Below the pieces are notes generated by a model. That model was not told where the DNA came from. It saw only the letters and a list, made by a program, of their open reading frames with translations, and did no database searches. DNA of 51,968 bases from Bacteriovoracaceae bacterium. GTDB lineage: Bacteria; Bdellovibrionota; Bacteriovoracia; Bacteriovoracales; Bacteriovoracaceae. The position numbers and the translations under genes were made by a program. Location: NCBI GenBank assembly GCA_023954635.1, contig JAGSHI010000009.1, positions 1 to 51,968 on the forward strand. Direction: 5' to 3'. Positions 1-7,782 of the stretch are shown here, piece after piece. Each line of letters opens with the position of its first letter. Within the stretch, counting starts at the first letter, position 1.

Positions 1-1528
1 CAACCCTGAAAGATTTGAAAACCTAAAAATTATTAATCCAAAAAAATGGGGTAGTTTTTCTGTAGAAGGAGTTGATGCTCTTTCATTTTTGCAAGGGCAG
101 ACAACTTCTGATTTGTCGAAATTGCATGATGGTGAAGCAAGATTAAATGCCCGAGTGGATAGAAATGGAAAAACTCAGGCCTTGTTTTTCGTTGGAAAAA
201 CAAATACATCTTGGATGGTTTTTATTGAGTTAGACTTCTTGGCTCCTCTTATGGAGGAGCTTGAAAAATTTATTATAATGGAAGATGTTGTCCTCAATAA
301 AACAGATAATGACGTAACTTTTTATACTTACCCAACGTCAAAAAAGCCCAATCTAAAAGATTATTTTACGACTACTATTTGTGGAGTACCTGGTTTAATA
401 AGTCTTCAGAAACCAAATACTGAATTTGAAAGTTTAGACTTTGCTTCTGCTCTCTTATTAGGGTTTCCTTATAGTGAAATTTCCTGGAATAAAGGCGAGC
501 TTTTAACAAACTCTCATCACTGTCATGAAGCGGTTAGTTTAGATAAAGGCTGTTTTCTAGGACAAGAAACAGTGGCTAAAGTTCTTACAAATCGTGGCGC
601 ATCCATTAATAATGCCATTGTTGAAATAGATACAGACATCGTAACTCCTGATGAGGGCGATTCGTTTGCTATTGAAGGAAAGAATGCAGGACAATTTGTT
701 AAGAGTCTTGATGAAAAGAATTGGCTAATTCAAGTTAAGAGAGCTTATTCAATTAAAAATAAAAAAGTTATAATGGTGTGTAAAGAAAAAGAAATTGAGG
801 TTACTCCATGCTTCTTACCAAAATATGAGGAAGCAAATAGACATAAACTCTCAGAAGAATCCTATGAATATGCGATGAGTTTATTCACCAAAGACGAAAA
901 GTCGGCGGAAGAATACTTCTTAAAAAGCTTAGATATTGATCCTTCAAATCAAGCGGCTTGTGAAGCTTATGGAGTATATCTTGGTCGAATGGGAAAATAC
1001 TCAGAGGGAATTCAGTTTATGGATAAACTTCTTGAGCTTGATACAACCAGTGTTATGGCCCATACAAATAAATCTTTATTTCTAATGAAGTTGGGCAAGA
1101 TCGAAGAGGCCGAAGAGGAAAAAAGTTTGGCGACTGTTGCTACGTTTAAAAAGCTTGGTGATGAGTCAAAAAAGAAAAGAGAAACTGAACAAGTTGAGCG
1201 TCAGGCGCTTCAGGATTTAGAAAAGAAGAAAGAAATGTTTCTTCAGGTTTTAGAGATAGATGCTGACGATCTGATCGCTAACTTTGGGTTGGCTGAATAT
1301 AATTTCAAAACGAAAAATTTTGAGAAAGCTGTAACGCTAATGGAAAAGGTAATTGGTCTCGACGAGGGATATTCAAGGGCCTATCTAATACTTGGGAAGT
1401 CTTTAATTGAACTTAAAGAAAAAGAAAAAGCGAGTAATGTTTTTTCAATTGGTATAGAAAAAGCATCTCAAAAGGGTGAACTTATGCCTGCAAATGAAAT
1501 GCAACAATTACTTATTTCTATTCAGTAA
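1..1528 (+). CDS. YgfZ/GcvT-fold folate-binding protein with C-terminal TPRs (5' partial)
   Basis: The reading frame is open back to the first base of the window, so the true start lies upstream. The N-terminal half is YgfZ-like: it has the FLQGQTTSD segment near base 88 and the family signature KGCFLGQE around base 547. YgfZ proteins are tetrahydrofolate-binding factors that help make or repair certain Fe-S enzymes in the cytoplasm. From about base 840 the protein changes into TPR-like helical repeats (for example LDIDPSNQAACEAYGVYLGR and VLEIDADDLIANFGLAEYNF), separated by a Lys/Glu-rich coiled-coil stretch. YgfZ proteins usually end after the folate-binding and barrel parts, so the TPR tail is unusual and may dock a partner. 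The stop overlaps the convergent next gene by 7 bases. YgfZ assignment is confident; the TPR role is inferred. Confidence 0.85.
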   Translation, partial: NPERFENLKIINPKKWGSFSVEGVDALSFLQGQTTSDLSKLHDGEARLNARVDRNGKTQALFFVGKTNTSWMVFIELDFLAPLMEELEKFIIMEDVVLNKTDNDVTFYTYPTSKKPNLKDYFTTTICGVPGLISLQKPNTEFESLDFASALLLGFPYSEISWNKGELLTNSHHCHEAVSLDKGCFLGQETVAKVLTNRGASINNAIVEIDTDIVTPDEGDSFAIEGKNAGQFVKSLDEKNWLIQVKRAYSIKNKKVIMVCKEKEIEVTPCFLPKYEEANRHKLSEESYEYAMSLFTKDEKSAEEYFLKSLDIDPSNQAACEAYGVYLGRMGKYSEGIQFMDKLLELDTTSVMAHTNKSLFLMKLGKIEEAEEEKSLATVATFKKLGDESKKKRETEQVERQALQDLEKKKEMFLQVLEIDADDLIANFGLAEYNFKTKNFEKAVTLMEKVIGLDEGYSRAYLILGKSLIELKEKEKASNVFSIGIEKASQKGELMPANEMQQLLISIQ

Positions 1529-2934
1529 TTAGACTTTGCATTCTCTTCCTTCAAAGTAACTTCTAGCGCAGATATAACTTTTAACTCAGGTGACTTTAGT
1601 TCACTTTTAAGTCTTTCCACATATGCCATAGATTCATCTAGAATATCTTTGACCAAGGTCATAACTTCGAGACCTTCAGGAGTGACTTTACCCATTTCAT
1701 GAGCAATATTGAGGTCATTGAAAGAGTAATTAAGCATTAAGAATTCTTCAACACATCTTCTTTTAATAACTTCAATATCAGAGTCTAAGATTCCATCAAG
1801 TTTGTTATTTTCTAAAAAAAGAGAGAGGTCATGAAATAGTTGAAAGGCCCAGTAGAATGTGAAAAAAGCATGGTAGATCCCTCTGATGGGTCTTCTTGCT
1901 TTTCTCCATGGACTATAAAAAATTTGTTCATCATCCTCTAGAATAAGATCTTTAGTGTTGAGAAGGGCATTCATGTAGTGATGACCATTTTCATGCAAAA
2001 GATCATCGTGTAATTCAAGAAAACTTCTCTCTTGAATGTTAATACTGCTATAGCCTGGAAGAGATTGTGTGCTGTAGCTCACAATTCCTTCCTCTGTCAT
2101 TGGGACAATCACTTTGGAGAAATTTAAAAAACAATCAAAAAGGCTTGGCGAAGCTTTTTCTATGTTTTTAAGTGCTTTTTGAATATTCGTTTTAATTTCT
2201 TGAGACTTGTCTTTTAGATCGCTTGAAATATTTATTGTTATCTGAGAGTTCCCTAGATCAATTGACTCAACACTCTGATCAATCGGATAAGAGGAGACTT
2301 CGTCATTGGAATCAACTTCAAGTGAAATTCTTTGATTTGTTACTAAATGAATTGGAATAATTCCTTCATTAAAAAGGTTCTCTTTTGAAACTCTATATCC
2401 AGAGTCTGAAATAAAGATATCACTTGCAGAGTCACCAATGTTTGTTTGCATACAGTAGCTCAGTGTCCCCGGTTGAGTTTCGGGGCTTGTGGATATGTGT
2501 ATAAAATAAAAACATAAAATTTGATTTTCTAAAAGAGGGACGAGACCTTCAGAGGTGTTGGCAATTTGTTCACCTGACTCAGATTGATTCATCTCAAGAA
2601 AAGTCTCTGAATAATCACTATCTTTCCAAAAATCAAAAATTTCATCTTCAACTGTTTGATCGTTTTTTAACTCAAAATGTAGATGAGATAAAAAGAGAAG
2701 ATCTTCAAGTTGTTTTGAAAAATAAAATCTCAGAGGCGAATAAGAATAAAGAGCATCGTCAGAAATAACTTTGTTAATGGTGCTAATAAATTCTTTTGAA
2801 AGAAACTTCGTTACATAGGTTTCTGAAAACTCTTCGAATAACTCTTCAAGGAAACTAGAGTACCCATCACTAATCTCTTTTATGAGATCGAATTGGAACT
2901 TGCTTTGAAGTAATTTATTTTTTTTGGATGTCAT
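1522..2934 (-). CDS. HExxH-motif protein, putative 2-oxoglutarate-dependent peptide beta-hydroxylase
   Basis: 470 residues, no signal peptide or membrane segment, probably cytoplasmic. Residues 309-325 read HDDLLHENGHHYMNALL, an HExxH metal-binding motif. A conserved-looking YSPWRKARRPIRGIYHAFF follows at 340-358. HExxH plus PWRxxxRPxxGxxHxxxxF is, from memory, the signature of the family annotated as HEXXH-motif putative peptide modification proteins (aKG-HExxH-type peptide beta-hydroxylases), Fe(II)/2-oxoglutarate enzymes of RiPP pathways. The first 300 residues are poorly conserved-looking and acidic. ATG starts 21 bases after the CCA end of tRNA-Asn with no visible Shine-Dalgarno, so it may be read through from the tRNA promoter. 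No precursor peptide, radical SAM enzyme or transporter is nearby, so the substrate is unknown. A zinc protease is the alternative reading. Confidence 0.72.
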   Translation of the reverse strand: MTSKKNKLLQSKFQFDLIKEISDGYSSFLEELFEEFSETYVTKFLSKEFISTINKVISDDALYSYSPLRFYFSKQLEDLLFLSHLHFELKNDQTVEDEIFDFWKDSDYSETFLEMNQSESGEQIANTSEGLVPLLENQILCFYFIHISTSPETQPGTLSYCMQTNIGDSASDIFISDSGYRVSKENLFNEGIIPIHLVTNQRISLEVDSNDEVSSYPIDQSVESIDLGNSQITINISSDLKDKSQEIKTNIQKALKNIEKASPSLFDCFLNFSKVIVPMTEEGIVSYSTQSLPGYSSINIQERSFLELHDDLLHENGHHYMNALLNTKDLILEDDEQIFYSPWRKARRPIRGIYHAFFTFYWAFQLFHDLSLFLENNKLDGILDSDIEVIKRRCVEEFLMLNYSFNDLNIAHEMGKVTPEGLEVMTLVKDILDESMAYVERLKSELKSPELKVISALEVTLKEENAKSNY

Positions 2935-2955: not shown

Positions 2956-3030
2956 TGGCTGGGGTGGCCGGATTCGAACCGGCGACCAATAGATTAACAG
3001 TCTACTGCGCTACCGCTGCGCCACACCCCA
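2956..3030 (-). tRNA. tRNA-Asn (GTT)
   Basis: The minus strand folds as a cloverleaf: acceptor TGGGGTG with CACCCCA, anticodon loop CTGTTAATC with anticodon GTT at 2996-2998, T-arm GGTTCGAATCC, and an encoded 3' GCCA. Seven T residues (minus strand) follow the CCA end almost directly, which may terminate transcription, yet the HExxH gene starts only 21 bases further on. Confidence 0.97.
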
Positions 3031-3225: not shown

Positions 3226-3816
3226 TTGGTAGCTAAAAGAAACTTTCTTATTAAGTCACTCATTAGAGTTCTGACTCCAGAGGAGATCAGCGAGCTCACA
3301 ACCACCTATTGTGGCGAGAGAAGGGTGTCTTTAACATCTTTGTTGGACCAAGAATTTGTCGGCATAGAGCCGGAAGTAGGGCCCAAGAAGGACCCAGAAG
3401 AAGTGGCCACTCAATCTAAGGCAAAAATTTTGCCATTTGGGAAAGCTGCAGATGACGCGGTCCTCGGCGATAGCTCCAAAGATTCGCCAGCTTTAGCTAA
3501 AGGATATGAGTTTAAAGTTGGGCCTAAAGTGCTTGTCTTGTTTAAGAAACTCTATGGAATTAGTGAAAATAGCTTTAATAGTATGGAAACTGATGAAGTC
3601 GAAGTTTCTATGGAAAAAACCAAAAAGGGTACAAGCCTTTTTATATTAGACGAAAAAGAAAAGTTGGATTCAAGTCAGAAAAAACTAAAATCAAAAGAAG
3701 TTCTAGGAACTTATAAAAAAGTGGCTTCGATGGACATCGAAACCGAGAAAAGCCATAAAGATGACCTTTCTTGGTCTTCGTGTAGCGGACTACTTATCAA
3801 TAAAAAACAATATTAG
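3226..3816 (+). CDS. Hypothetical protein, unknown family
   Basis: 196 residues starting at TTG, chosen because AGAGG at 3215-3219 sits six bases upstream and no better start exists. I do not recognise the family. The first 60 residues (RVLTPEEISELTTTYCGERR) look helical. The segment AKILPFGKAAD near residue 65 and the Lys/Glu-rich, probably flexible second half give no domain match. There is no signal peptide or membrane helix, so it is presumably cytoplasmic. It is flanked by a possible sigma-28-like promoter, which would tie it to motility, and its stop overlaps the convergent astD gene by four bases. Function unknown; the unbroken frame and ribosome-binding site support it being a real gene. 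Confidence 0.7.
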   Translation: MVAKRNFLIKSLIRVLTPEEISELTTTYCGERRVSLTSLLDQEFVGIEPEVGPKKDPEEVATQSKAKILPFGKAADDAVLGDSSKDSPALAKGYEFKVGPKVLVLFKKLYGISENSFNSMETDEVEVSMEKTKKGTSLFILDEKEKLDSSQKKLKSKEVLGTYKKVASMDIETEKSHKDDLSWSSCSGLLINKKQY

Positions 3817-5336
3817 TTTTTAATTCCTTTAATCGTATCAAGCGAAACCGGATCATCTTTATGGAGCTCAAGACTCGCCATTTGATAAACACAAGCGTCA
3901 ACCGTCGAGACAGCTGCAGGTCTATAGTTCCCGGAGTTTTTAACTCCTCCAAATGGAAGTTTACTACTTGCTCCGACAGTAGATCTATTAAGGTTCACTA
4001 AACCAATATCAAGGTCTCTTATCGCAGTTTGATAAAGTGATTGGTCTTTTGTGAATAGTCCTGCTGCAAGTCCGTATTCAGTTTTGTTACTGATAGCAAT
4101 GGCCTCGTCAAAATCTGAATATGGAATTATTGTACAATTAGGTCCAAAAATTTCACTTGAGAGAAAATGACTTTCATCGCTCCAACCTTTGGCTAAATGA
4201 ATTGAAGGGGTAACATAATAACCTCTTCGTTTCTTTTCGAGTTGTTTACCTCTCATAATTTCTTCAAGGCCTTCTCTTTTGGCCATTCCCATAAAAAGTA
4301 AGTAGCTATCAACAGCTCTTTTATCTACAAGAGGTCCCATGAAGGGTTCTTCATCATGAATGATTGGATGATCAATAATAAGTTTCTTAGAAAGTTTATG
4401 AAATCTATCTACGAATTCATCTACAAGAGTGTCGTGAATGACAACTAAACTAGTACTAGTACATCGTTGACCAGTCGTCATGAAACTTCCCTTGAGAAGT
4501 TCATGGAGTGCATTTTCAAGATTTGCATCGCTATGAACGATGGCAGGGTTTTTTCCACCTAGTTCAAGAGAGACTAACTTAGAAAGGTCTTGATGAGTTT
4601 CGTTAAGAATCTTTAGGCCTACCTCTTTTGAACCAGTAAAGAATACACCTTTAACAGATTTGTCTCGAATAATTCTTCGAGCAGATTCTCCATCACCTTG
4701 TACAAGGTTAATAACACCTTTTGGGAAACCGGCTTGATGAAAACATTCAATAAGGATTTGTCCAGAGTATGCAGTCTTTTCACTTGGTTTGAAAATAATA
4801 CTATTGCCTGAAATTAAAGCACTGAGTATCTGTCCATTTGCTAAATGGCATGGAAAGTTAAATGGGCCAATGATGGCACATGGTCCGAGTGGCTTATAAA
4901 AAATATGTCCCTGTGTTCCAGGCATAATTTCGTCGAAGTGTTTGTCCTTGATTCTAGGGAGAGAGTCGTTAATCGTTACGTCAACTTTTGCAACGAGTGC
5001 ACCAGCTTCGGTATAAGCTTCCCACAGGGGCTTCCCGGATTCCATGCTGATGGCCTCTGCAATATCATCTTTTTTTGCAATTAGCTCTTCTTGATATCGT
5101 TTAAGAAAATTAATTCTTTCTTCTGTTGAGAGTTTTCTCCAAAAAGAAAAACCGTGGCTTGCACTTTCCAAAACCTCTGGGATGTCACGATATTCAATGG
5201 GCATACTCCACAACATTGTTTCAATGTCTGCGGGACACTCTCTTTTAATATAATGTTCAACAGCTTGGGGGCCTGATGTTATTGGGTAGTGAAATTCACC
5301 ATTAAAATAATTACCTTTGATTTCGTATTTCATCAT
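3813..5336 (-). CDS. astD: Succinylglutamate-semialdehyde dehydrogenase AstD
   Basis: 507-residue aldehyde dehydrogenase. It has the NAD-site segment FFTGSKEVG (about 232-240), the general-base motif LELGGKNP (Glu258) and the nucleophile motif GQRCTSTS (Cys292), all intact. In the arginine succinyltransferase (AST) pathway this enzyme oxidises N-succinylglutamate semialdehyde to succinylglutamate with NAD+ in the cytoplasm. The call rests on close linkage to astA: the AstA stop and AstD start share one base (5336), so they are translationally coupled. N-terminal 40 residues before the ALDH core look slightly extended. Without the neighbour, a generic ALDH would be the safer call. Confidence 0.88.
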   Translation of the reverse strand: MMKYEIKGNYFNGEFHYPITSGPQAVEHYIKRECPADIETMLWSMPIEYRDIPEVLESASHGFSFWRKLSTEERINFLKRYQEELIAKKDDIAEAISMESGKPLWEAYTEAGALVAKVDVTINDSLPRIKDKHFDEIMPGTQGHIFYKPLGPCAIIGPFNFPCHLANGQILSALISGNSIIFKPSEKTAYSGQILIECFHQAGFPKGVINLVQGDGESARRIIRDKSVKGVFFTGSKEVGLKILNETHQDLSKLVSLELGGKNPAIVHSDANLENALHELLKGSFMTTGQRCTSTSLVVIHDTLVDEFVDRFHKLSKKLIIDHPIIHDEEPFMGPLVDKRAVDSYLLFMGMAKREGLEEIMRGKQLEKKRRGYYVTPSIHLAKGWSDESHFLSSEIFGPNCTIIPYSDFDEAIAISNKTEYGLAAGLFTKDQSLYQTAIRDLDIGLVNLNRSTVGASSKLPFGGVKNSGNYRPAAVSTVDACVYQMASLELHKDDPVSLDTIKGIKN

Positions 5337-6364
5337 TACTCCTGGAATGGAATGGAGGAAGCTTGAAACTTTCCATCCATATTGAGTTTAGTAAAAAACT
5401 CAGATTCACATTCAATATTATTATCTTGGTTATTGGTTTTACATACAAATGCTTTAAACCCTTGATCATCTTGAAATCCAACAAGATGAGTTTTGTCGGT
5501 TTCTGCTACAGAGGAAACAGGTTTAAAGTCACCACTTTTCATGTTTTTAATTAATGTGATTTCTCTTAATGGACATCGATAATGAGGACCACCATCAAAA
5601 GGGTCTACTTCATTAATATAATGAAACCCTATGCTTTCGAGCATTTTCTTTACTGGTAGCGTATCTTTACCAACTTTTCCAAGTGCATTTCTGGCCTGCA
5701 TGGGCAGTAAACATTCATAAATGTTTTCAGAAGGGAAAAGTGAAAGAATAAATTCTTTGTTATTCCTCGAAAGAAGATCGGCTTCAGGATAATTCATATT
5801 CATAAAGCGTCTGCCTATGGCTTCCCAAAGGGGACTCTTTCCTTCATCGTCAAAAGGAGGCATAAGTTCAGAGTGAATTTCTTCTTTAAATTTCTCTCTA
5901 TTCATTCCCATATAAAGAAATCGAACAAAGGAAAGCTGTTTCCCTAGCTTTTGATTATTTCCCCTGAGCTCAGGGTGTAAAATCAAACCACCAATTTCAG
6001 TTGGACCATCAGTTTCCAGTCCTAGCTTCAATGTTCCGTGAATAAATCCAGTATTAATTGTTTTACTAAATTTGTGCTCTTGTCCGACTCTTAAATAAAA
6101 GTGCGGTTCGTCCTCTGTTCCATGTTGGGCATGAATCATTGAGGCACCGATAACTTTATTACTTTCAACTTCTTCTAAAACAAATAGATAGTGATCCTTA
6201 GAAAAATCTTTAGAAGGACCTTTATTAGAAAAACTTTTTGTACTTGATTTAATTAAATACTCAATAACTTTTCTGTCTGAAGGCAAGTTAATAAAGTTGA
6301 CTAACTGGCTTAGCGTATAAAGGTCATCTAGGTCGTCTAATTTTGCTTCTCTAATTAGATACAT
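5336..6364 (-). CDS. astA: Arginine N-succinyltransferase AstA
   Basis: 342 residues, matching the roughly 340 residues usual for AstA. The N terminus MYLIREAKLDDLDDLYTLSQ is the typical start of the GNAT-like AstA/AruG family. Further family-like blocks are GGLILHPELRGNNQKLGKQLS (about 125-145), FVRFLYMGMNR, and GRRFMNMNYPEADLLS (about 189-204). It transfers succinate from succinyl-CoA to arginine, the first step of the ammonia-producing AST pathway. The gene lies one base after the aminotransferase stop and one base into astD, forming a tight operon. AstB (succinylarginine dihydrolase) and AstE (succinylglutamate desuccinylase) are not in this window. Confidence 0.9.
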   Translation of the reverse strand: MYLIREAKLDDLDDLYTLSQLVNFINLPSDRKVIEYLIKSSTKSFSNKGPSKDFSKDHYLFVLEEVESNKVIGASMIHAQHGTEDEPHFYLRVGQEHKFSKTINTGFIHGTLKLGLETDGPTEIGGLILHPELRGNNQKLGKQLSFVRFLYMGMNREKFKEEIHSELMPPFDDEGKSPLWEAIGRRFMNMNYPEADLLSRNNKEFILSLFPSENIYECLLPMQARNALGKVGKDTLPVKKMLESIGFHYINEVDPFDGGPHYRCPLREITLIKNMKSGDFKPVSSVAETDKTHLVGFQDDQGFKAFVCKTNNQDNNIECESEFFTKLNMDGKFQASSIPFQE

Positions 6365-6365
6365 C

Positions 6366-7733
6366 TTAACTCTCTACTTCTAAAATTGTTTTTTCCACAA
6401 TGGAAAAGATTTCATCTAAATGATCTTCATCAAGACAGAGGGGGGGGAGGAACCTAACTCTAACGGGATCCTTTCCTGCAGAAAACGCAATAATTCCATT
6501 CTGAAATAACTTCTTTAAAAATTTCGAAGTTGATTCTTTTGAGCCTTCACCAACTTGAAAAGCAACCATAACTCCAGTCGCTTCGAATCGTCCGATTTTT
6601 CCTTTGCAACTTCCATTTGAAAGCTTCTCTATTCTCGTAAGGAACGCTTGCTCAAGTTGAGCTATTCGACCACTGTCGCCAAAGAAATTTCCCTCGGTAA
6701 GGTATCGCACGATTTTTTTTCCAGCGAGTACAGCACTTAGTGAACCATTAAATGTTCCTGATACGAGTCCTGGTTTGGGATTTAATTCATTTGAGAAAAG
6801 TACGCCACAAACTTGGAGGGCCTTCCCGACAGTTACGATATCTACATATTCTTCTAGATTAAAATGTTGAAAAGCAAAAAGCTTATGAGTTCTTGCAAAG
6901 CTTTGAACTTCATCAATCCAAATGTATAGACCGTGACTTTTTGCGAGCTCAAAAATTTCTACATAGAAGTCTCGTGAGCCTGCAACAATTCCTGCTTCAC
7001 CCTGAACAATTTCAATCATCATTGCAGAGTATTCACCCTCGTTTTCTTCAAGTAAATTACGTAAAACTTCTAATGTTCTTTTTTTGCTTCCTTCGGGGTC
7101 ATTAATATCAAAGTGGGGAATATGATCGACTTCAACTTTTTTAGGCATTCCATCACGGTAAGCAGCATTATAGGTAATATCTTGAGTGGCAACACTTCTA
7201 CCAGCAAATGCATCCTCAAAAGCGATGAGCTTGTATGCTGGGGCCCTTTTTTGCCACACCATTTTTAAAGCTGTGTCATTGGCGAATGAACCACTACCGG
7301 CGTACCAAAAATGTTTTAACTTAGAATCACTGACAGCATTAATCAGTAATTCAGAAAGTTCAAAAGTTTGTGGATATGGTTGTAAATTCCCACACATGAC
7401 TGAATCAAGAGCAGCAGCTTCAAGGTGTGATTTAATATAAAGTGGATGGGAATGTCCCAATAGGTTTGGTCCAATTCCGCCGATCAAATCATACTTAATA
7501 GAACCGTCTGTGCACTCGGTAAAGGGACCATGTCCGCGACCAGTTGCAAGGTAAGGGTAAAAGAATCCTCTTCCTCGTAGTTGACCATAGCTCTCCAGCA
7601 ATTGTGATGTTTCTTCTACTTTTTGTGGATCCGCACTTTTCAGTGTCATGAACTTCGATTGCTCAACTAATATGGCAGTGAAAGCTTCATCGAGTTTGTT
7701 TTGTAGTTCAGGATTGGTTGCACCATAAGTCAT
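6366..7733 (-). CDS. Class III PLP aminotransferase, probable succinylornithine transaminase
   Basis: 455 residues from the ATG at 7733, preferred because GGAG lies six bases before it; in-frame ATG codons at 7739 and 7745 and TTG at 7763 lack such a site. Class III signatures are present: PLP-pocket GSGSFANDTALK, IWIDEVQSFART with the ring-nitrogen Asp (about 274), and the Schiff-base lysine in TVGKALQ (about 304). Position as first gene of the astA-astD operon suggests the AstC step, transamination of succinylornithine. The protein is longer than AstC/ArgD (about 400 residues) and diverges from them, so lysine or other diamine transaminase activity remains possible. A run of eight G (6440-6447) near the 3' end could be prone to slippage. 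Confidence 0.75.
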   Translation of the reverse strand: MTYGATNPELQNKLDEAFTAILVEQSKFMTLKSADPQKVEETSQLLESYGQLRGRGFFYPYLATGRGHGPFTECTDGSIKYDLIGGIGPNLLGHSHPLYIKSHLEAAALDSVMCGNLQPYPQTFELSELLINAVSDSKLKHFWYAGSGSFANDTALKMVWQKRAPAYKLIAFEDAFAGRSVATQDITYNAAYRDGMPKKVEVDHIPHFDINDPEGSKKRTLEVLRNLLEENEGEYSAMMIEIVQGEAGIVAGSRDFYVEIFELAKSHGLYIWIDEVQSFARTHKLFAFQHFNLEEYVDIVTVGKALQVCGVLFSNELNPKPGLVSGTFNGSLSAVLAGKKIVRYLTEGNFFGDSGRIAQLEQAFLTRIEKLSNGSCKGKIGRFEATGVMVAFQVGEGSKESTSKFLKKLFQNGIIAFSAGKDPVRVRFLPPLCLDEDHLDEIFSIVEKTILEVES

Positions 7734-7782
7734 TTTCATCTCCATATAATCAACCAAATTCAAGAGGTTAAAATGATCAGCC

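Follow-up and report, generated by a model that had tools for sequence, protein, structure and literature searches.

What does an oxygenase of a peptide-modifying family do when no RiPP cluster lies beside it? The question is raised by a gene on a 51,968-nucleotide contig (the window, referring throughout to the whole stretch analysed) from a Bacteriovoracaceae MAG, where a 470-residue protein is encoded on the minus strand at 1522..2934, with its ATG at 2934 and its stop codon ending at 1522. HENGHH (residues 314-319), PWRKARRP (342-349) and GIYHAFF (352-358) were re-read exactly where a first-pass annotation, made from the letters of the sequence, had placed them in proposing a peptide beta-hydroxylase of the aKG-HExxH type. 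The annotation also suggested a predatory host, which is plausible, as the nearest named genomes are those of Bacteriovorax, Halobacteriovorax and other Bacteriovoracaceae, a family with known predators. The reading that we prefer is that the protein is probably a cytoplasmic mononuclear Fe(II)/2-oxoglutarate peptidyl hydroxylase of the aKG-HExxH family, acting on an unlinked endogenous polypeptide.

Membership of the family was established computationally. The NCBIfam model TIGR04267 (aKG-HExxH peptide beta-hydroxylase) matched the protein at 63.5 bits (E 2.4e-17) against a cut-off of 40 bits, bearing out the family call of the first-pass annotation, and a profile scan of the window genome recovered one copy, at 65.8 bits. 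No Pfam family, peptidase families included, was matched above its cut-off. Among PDB sequences, phmmer matches were limited to ChlH (8s5f, E 2.9e-9) and the SjiH entries 22nu and 22ob (E 1.3e-4), and a profile of 19 orthologues reached ChlH at E 2.4e-14. The protein comprises a helical N-terminal region (residues ~1-146), a beta-rich middle (158-234) and a zincin-like HExxH domain (~240-445). An AlphaFold2 model run on the orthologue alignment (pLDDT 92.3, pTM 0.89) was compared with the PDB using Foldseek; the best match was 22ob (SjiH-Ni, E 6.7e-11), and four chains of 8s5f (ChlBHExxH), described as the HExxH domain of a novel alpha-ketoglutarate-dependent oxygenase, were matched at E about 1e-7 (best 8e-8). 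SjiH and ChlBHExxH, both with a probability of 1.00, were the sole PDB entries with E<1e-6, no other falling below 0.001, and zinc proteases of the ERAP1/ERAP aminopeptidase type came next at E>=0.08. Superposition on SjiH and 8s5f was partial (TM 0.36-0.59, the 0.59 being by target length; rmsd 8-12 A), so the Foldseek match supports the fold and not the exact geometry of the metal site. The protein thus combines a TIGR04267 score above cut-off, the fold of the solved members, and HExxH, PWRxxxRP and a following His. No viral relatives were found in IMG/VR, and nothing significant in BFVD.

Residue conservation was read from the alignment of 19 orthologues, in which HExxH (codons H314-E315-N316-G317-H318-H319 at 1978..1995, minus strand; the putative metal site), PWRxxxRP (P342 to P349 at 1888..1911, minus strand) and the following His were invariant or nearly so, and could be aligned to ChlH. 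Residues invariant in all 19 include S286, S288, Q290, P293, D310, D311, H314, E315, N316, G317, H318 and H319, as well as E333, S341, P342, W343, R344, R348, R351, G352, Y354, H355, R393, E396 and E397. Of 78 named-genome loci, 77 carry HExxH; the remaining one, L084, was represented by no more than a 107-aa ORF fragment. Given the TIGR04267 score, the matches to ChlH and this conservation, the motif is not a chance occurrence. A Ser, HExxH, RP and a His seven residues after the Arg are common to the long orthologues and to a group of shorter TIGR04267 relatives, and it is this alignment that makes H355 (codon 1870..1872, minus strand; RP-x5-H) the candidate third metal ligand and R348, common to all aligned relatives, or R344, which some short relatives do not conserve, the candidate 2-oxoglutarate-binding arginine. 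Iron would accordingly be held by H314, H318 and probably H355. ChlH carries a His at the H355 position; SjiH aligns a Gln there, so the assignment of H355 as third ligand is not universal. E396 was considered as a gluzincin-like ligand and rejected: catalytically dead orthologues keep it and the short relatives do not conserve it, so that a role in holding the metal is unlikely. The metzincin pattern HExxHxxGxxH is likewise absent, the sequence reading HENGHHYMNAL. With no Pfam peptidase match either, the protein shows none of these marks of a gluzincin or metzincin zinc metallopeptidase, a resemblance that the first-pass annotation had named as fatal to its proposal.

The dead orthologues occur in three species of one genus (G025, G091 and G092; ORFs at L041:8969-10447, L152:8789-10225 and L170:885-2385), where H-E-N-G-H-H is replaced by Q-S-N-A-L-H, Q-S-S-A-L-H or Q-T-N-A-L-H and PWR, RP, R351 and H355 are lost as well. 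F272, P293, S296, H319, N322, L325, E396 and G421 are retained, and from its retention H319 is probably structural. Judged from these substitutions, the gene of this genus encodes a predicted pseudoenzyme with all of its active-site residues gone. The residues lost are precisely those with a putative role in binding metal or 2-oxoglutarate, which would amount to a natural partition of catalytic from structural positions and a ready test of the non-catalytic part. The reading frame was held after the loss of catalysis; two of the three dead orthologues are full-length, and the ORF of the third is broken into two parts, apparently next to an unresolved base. Between them the full-length copies are 62% identical (dN 0.26, dS saturated) and the neighbouring proteins of the same two genomes 76-91% identical, indicating a faster-evolving gene, as in other pairs. 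The branch of the dead orthologues is long in the gene tree, suggesting a change of role. The G025 copy directly follows tRNA-Asn, with the conserved AstA/AldDH block alongside, and so occupies the same locus as the active enzymes.

That locus is conserved in most of the family. A tRNA-Asn(GUU) gene (2956..3030, minus strand) ends 21 bases before the enzyme ATG, a gene for a YgfZ/GcvT-like protein with TPR (2..1528, plus strand) converges on the enzyme gene with a 7-base overlap, and orf196 (3226..3816, plus strand), a divergently transcribed and conserved neighbour, encodes a protein of unknown family. In named genomes, 74 loci extended far enough upstream to be judged; at 64 of them tRNA-Asn(GUU) preceded the enzyme gene on the same strand, in 55 cases no more than 127 bases away or overlapping the start of the longest ORF. 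The convergent YgfZ-TPR gene ended within 30 bases at 59 of 71 loci. On the far side of YgfZ-TPR is an A-type Fe-S carrier (PF01521), and the opposite flank holds orf196 and genes of the arginine-succinyltransferase type. Window positions 3813-7763 encode an aldehyde dehydrogenase, an AstA-like arginine succinyltransferase and a class-III aminotransferase, which probably form an operon for an arginine/ornithine succinyl pathway, and this block is conserved beside the locus in the family. The frame persists in genomes without the enzyme (at L125, about 54 bases with nothing between separate tRNA-Asn from YgfZ-TPR), indicating that the enzyme is an optional, long-standing resident behind the tRNA gene in a conserved block. 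Both orf196 and YgfZ-TPR occur in genomes without the enzyme and were rejected as dedicated partners. Linkage to tRNA-Asn is in part general block synteny, which alone is no proof of a functional tie, and with tRNA-to-enzyme gaps of 0.5-2.6 kb in nine genomes co-transcription is not universal.

Scanning almost every ORF of at least 120 aa in the window against Pfam identified genes of amino-acid catabolism, flagella and glycine cleavage, ruvCAB, lpxC, a tRNA synthetase, EF-Tu, ribosomal proteins and rpoBC, that is, core chromosome, in agreement with the earlier statement that the window holds no RiPP genes. Neither a precursor peptide nor a RiPP enzyme was found in the window or, in the neighbourhood comparison that had been suggested, at the conserved position in a survey of about 100 related loci, and no conserved small precursor-like ORF lay within 3.5 kb of the gene in these loci. 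The enzyme gene therefore has no linked precursor, partner enzyme or exporter. The small ORFs that did recur nearby came down to tRNA-Asn, the A-type Fe-S carrier gene and orf196, either themselves or read antisense or out of frame, together with an ArsC-like gene at five loci and a membrane-anchored protein of 66-78 aa at five loci. No MNIO was detected in the window genome, and across 126 genomes of the order no NHLP leader passed the cut-off.

A TIGR04267 protein, mostly of the long form, was present in 89 of 129 genomes of the order and in 56 of the 73 of good quality. In a phylum-wide sample of 290 genomes the orthologue profile matched 76, all but two of them in the same family and those two weakly. 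The gene is single-copy and occurs in most Bacteriovoracaceae genomes. Comparison of gene trees gave agreement among shallow groups and conflict at deep splits: of 17 splits, 6 were shared, and 11 pairs conflicted with support. This stops short of proving strictly vertical inheritance; we propose that the enzyme has been kept across the family mostly by descent, at least at shallow depth. Two further homologues were observed. One is a divergent 404-aa protein in G010 (L130:7713-8927), 27% identical, at a different locus and not reported by the family model. The other (L120:8001-8669) sits in a Nitrospira-labelled contig with neither tRNA-Asn nor YgfZ-TPR adjoining, and is either a transfer or a mis-binned contig.

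From these results we infer the cofactor use, residue roles, expression and substrate class of the enzyme. The N-terminal helical and beta regions may recognise the polypeptide substrate, a protein or peptide that the cell makes on its own ribosomes from a gene elsewhere. The enzyme would hydroxylate it working alone, as an oxygenase that modifies proteins and not one that tailors RiPPs. In the window genome it would be made at a low, growth-linked level, probably by read-through from the tRNA-Asn promoter. We advance more tentatively, as a possibility short of even odds, the wider generalisation that across the Bacteriovoracaceae the oxygenase serves as a housekeeping protein hydroxylase co-expressed with tRNA-Asn, from which one genus has made a non-catalytic binding protein.

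Other explanations have to be set against this one. All characterised members in the literature consulted modify RiPP precursors (PMC12636437, PMC13060819, PMC12707348), and some of the 35 radical SAM matches in the genome could be peptide-modifying, so the enzyme might tailor a RiPP, with its precursor peptide and partner genes at another place in the genome; this seems rather unlikely, however, given the lack of an MNIO, of an NHLP leader and of a small conserved ORF in the surveys above, and given a single-copy, family-wide gene at a core locus, whereas RiPP clusters are usually patchy. A zinc metalloprotease, or bifunctional protease, of zincin fold would account for the HExxH, the zincin-like fold and the distant Foldseek likeness to aminopeptidases such as ERAP1, and in the absence of the leader PflC does cleave peptides, using Zn, Co or Fe (PMC12636437). 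We nevertheless regard it as improbable, because no Pfam peptidase family is matched, E396 behaves unlike a gluzincin Glu, and the invariant PWRxxxRP and RP-x5-H are common to a proven oxygenase.

The intact frames of two dead orthologues and their degree of divergence suggest instead that the retained role may be partly non-catalytic, that of a binding protein or chaperone-like factor that can do without catalysis. There is only a slim chance that this extends to the window enzyme: no active-site residue varies among the aligned active orthologues, and HExxH is all but universal at the other loci, pointing to catalysis there, and the long dead branch speaks for a changed role in that genus. 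Action on prey proteins or peptides during predation, one of the substrates offered by the first-pass annotation, has the predatory relatives in its favour. It is nonetheless very improbable, and the least supported of the substrates offered, since inspection of the 470-aa sequence revealed no signal peptide or membrane segment; moreover, the position is a tRNA-linked housekeeping one with no linked secretion genes. An unlinked endogenous substrate remains the best reading.

The shorter TIGR04267 proteins (244-305 aa) form a second group in the same phylum, homologous to the long form (hhalign probability 98), and their model also matches ChlBH (E 8e-11). They were found at L155:5614-11658, L156, L157, L158, L166, L164, L153, L154, L043, L162, L131 and L163, where in most examined loci the gene has as neighbours a histidine kinase and a solute-binding protein of the SBP_bac_5 family, and a sigma-54-type response regulator is often present too, so that the short oxygenase appears to sit inside a two-component signalling cassette. 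At six of these loci a small protein with a signal-peptide-like start and a conserved SF tail (NSFA, HSFA, HSFIR, ASFISGN, HSFSM, KSFTVSK) is encoded just before the solute-binding gene (L155:7048-7515, L156:4524-4991, L157:8205-8687, L158:7280-7771, L166:7354-7746 and L164:7329-7556). The short oxygenases could have these small proteins as peptide substrates or as signals, a lead hinting at a further use of the oxygenase, in peptide signalling, by some of these bacteria.

Stand-alone protein hydroxylases are familiar from the JmjC type, e.g. E. coli YcfD/RoxA, which are 2-oxoglutarate-dependent, act on ribosomal and other targets, and have a cupin (double-stranded beta-helix) fold with an HxD..H triad. 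They are not homologous to the window enzyme; a functional analogy, as housekeeping protein hydroxylation, is possible. Clusterless, single-copy and family-wide at a fixed tRNA locus, the Bacteriovoracaceae member suggests that the HExxH fold, too, serves ordinary protein hydroxylation, and the cultivable Halobacteriovorax and Bacteriovorax relatives make the substrate findable by proteomics. The literature search returned no paper linking Bacteriovorax with HExxH, and no published description of SjiH or 8S5F. An HExxH fold put to 2-oxoglutarate chemistry, for which the first-pass annotation claimed novelty, was already known from ChlBH, BpmH, PflC and PesO; what is new is its lineage-wide setting outside a cluster. 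Characterised members of the family act on RiPP precursors by hydroxylation of His, Asp, Phe, Gln or Pro or by oxidative backbone cleavage (PMC12636437, PMC13060819, PMC12707348), and PflC can also hydrolyse peptides (PMC12636437). SjiH is the best fold match, its HExxH aligning at nearly the same residue number, and differs in the Gln noted above. ChlBHExxH/ChlH of Chlorogloeopsis shares HExxH, SPWRxxxRP and RP-x5-H with the window protein (Foldseek E 8e-8, phmmer E 3e-9), but is a radical-SAM-fused beta-hydroxylase in a RiPP pathway, whereas the window protein has neither the fusion nor the pathway and differs in its N-terminal region. PflC/PosC (Pseudomonas), PesO (Peribacillus) and BipH/BpmH (biphenomycin) belong to the same family by literature description (IPR026337/aKG-HExxH) and lie in clusters with precursor peptide and tailoring enzymes, in contrast to the clusterless gene of the window.
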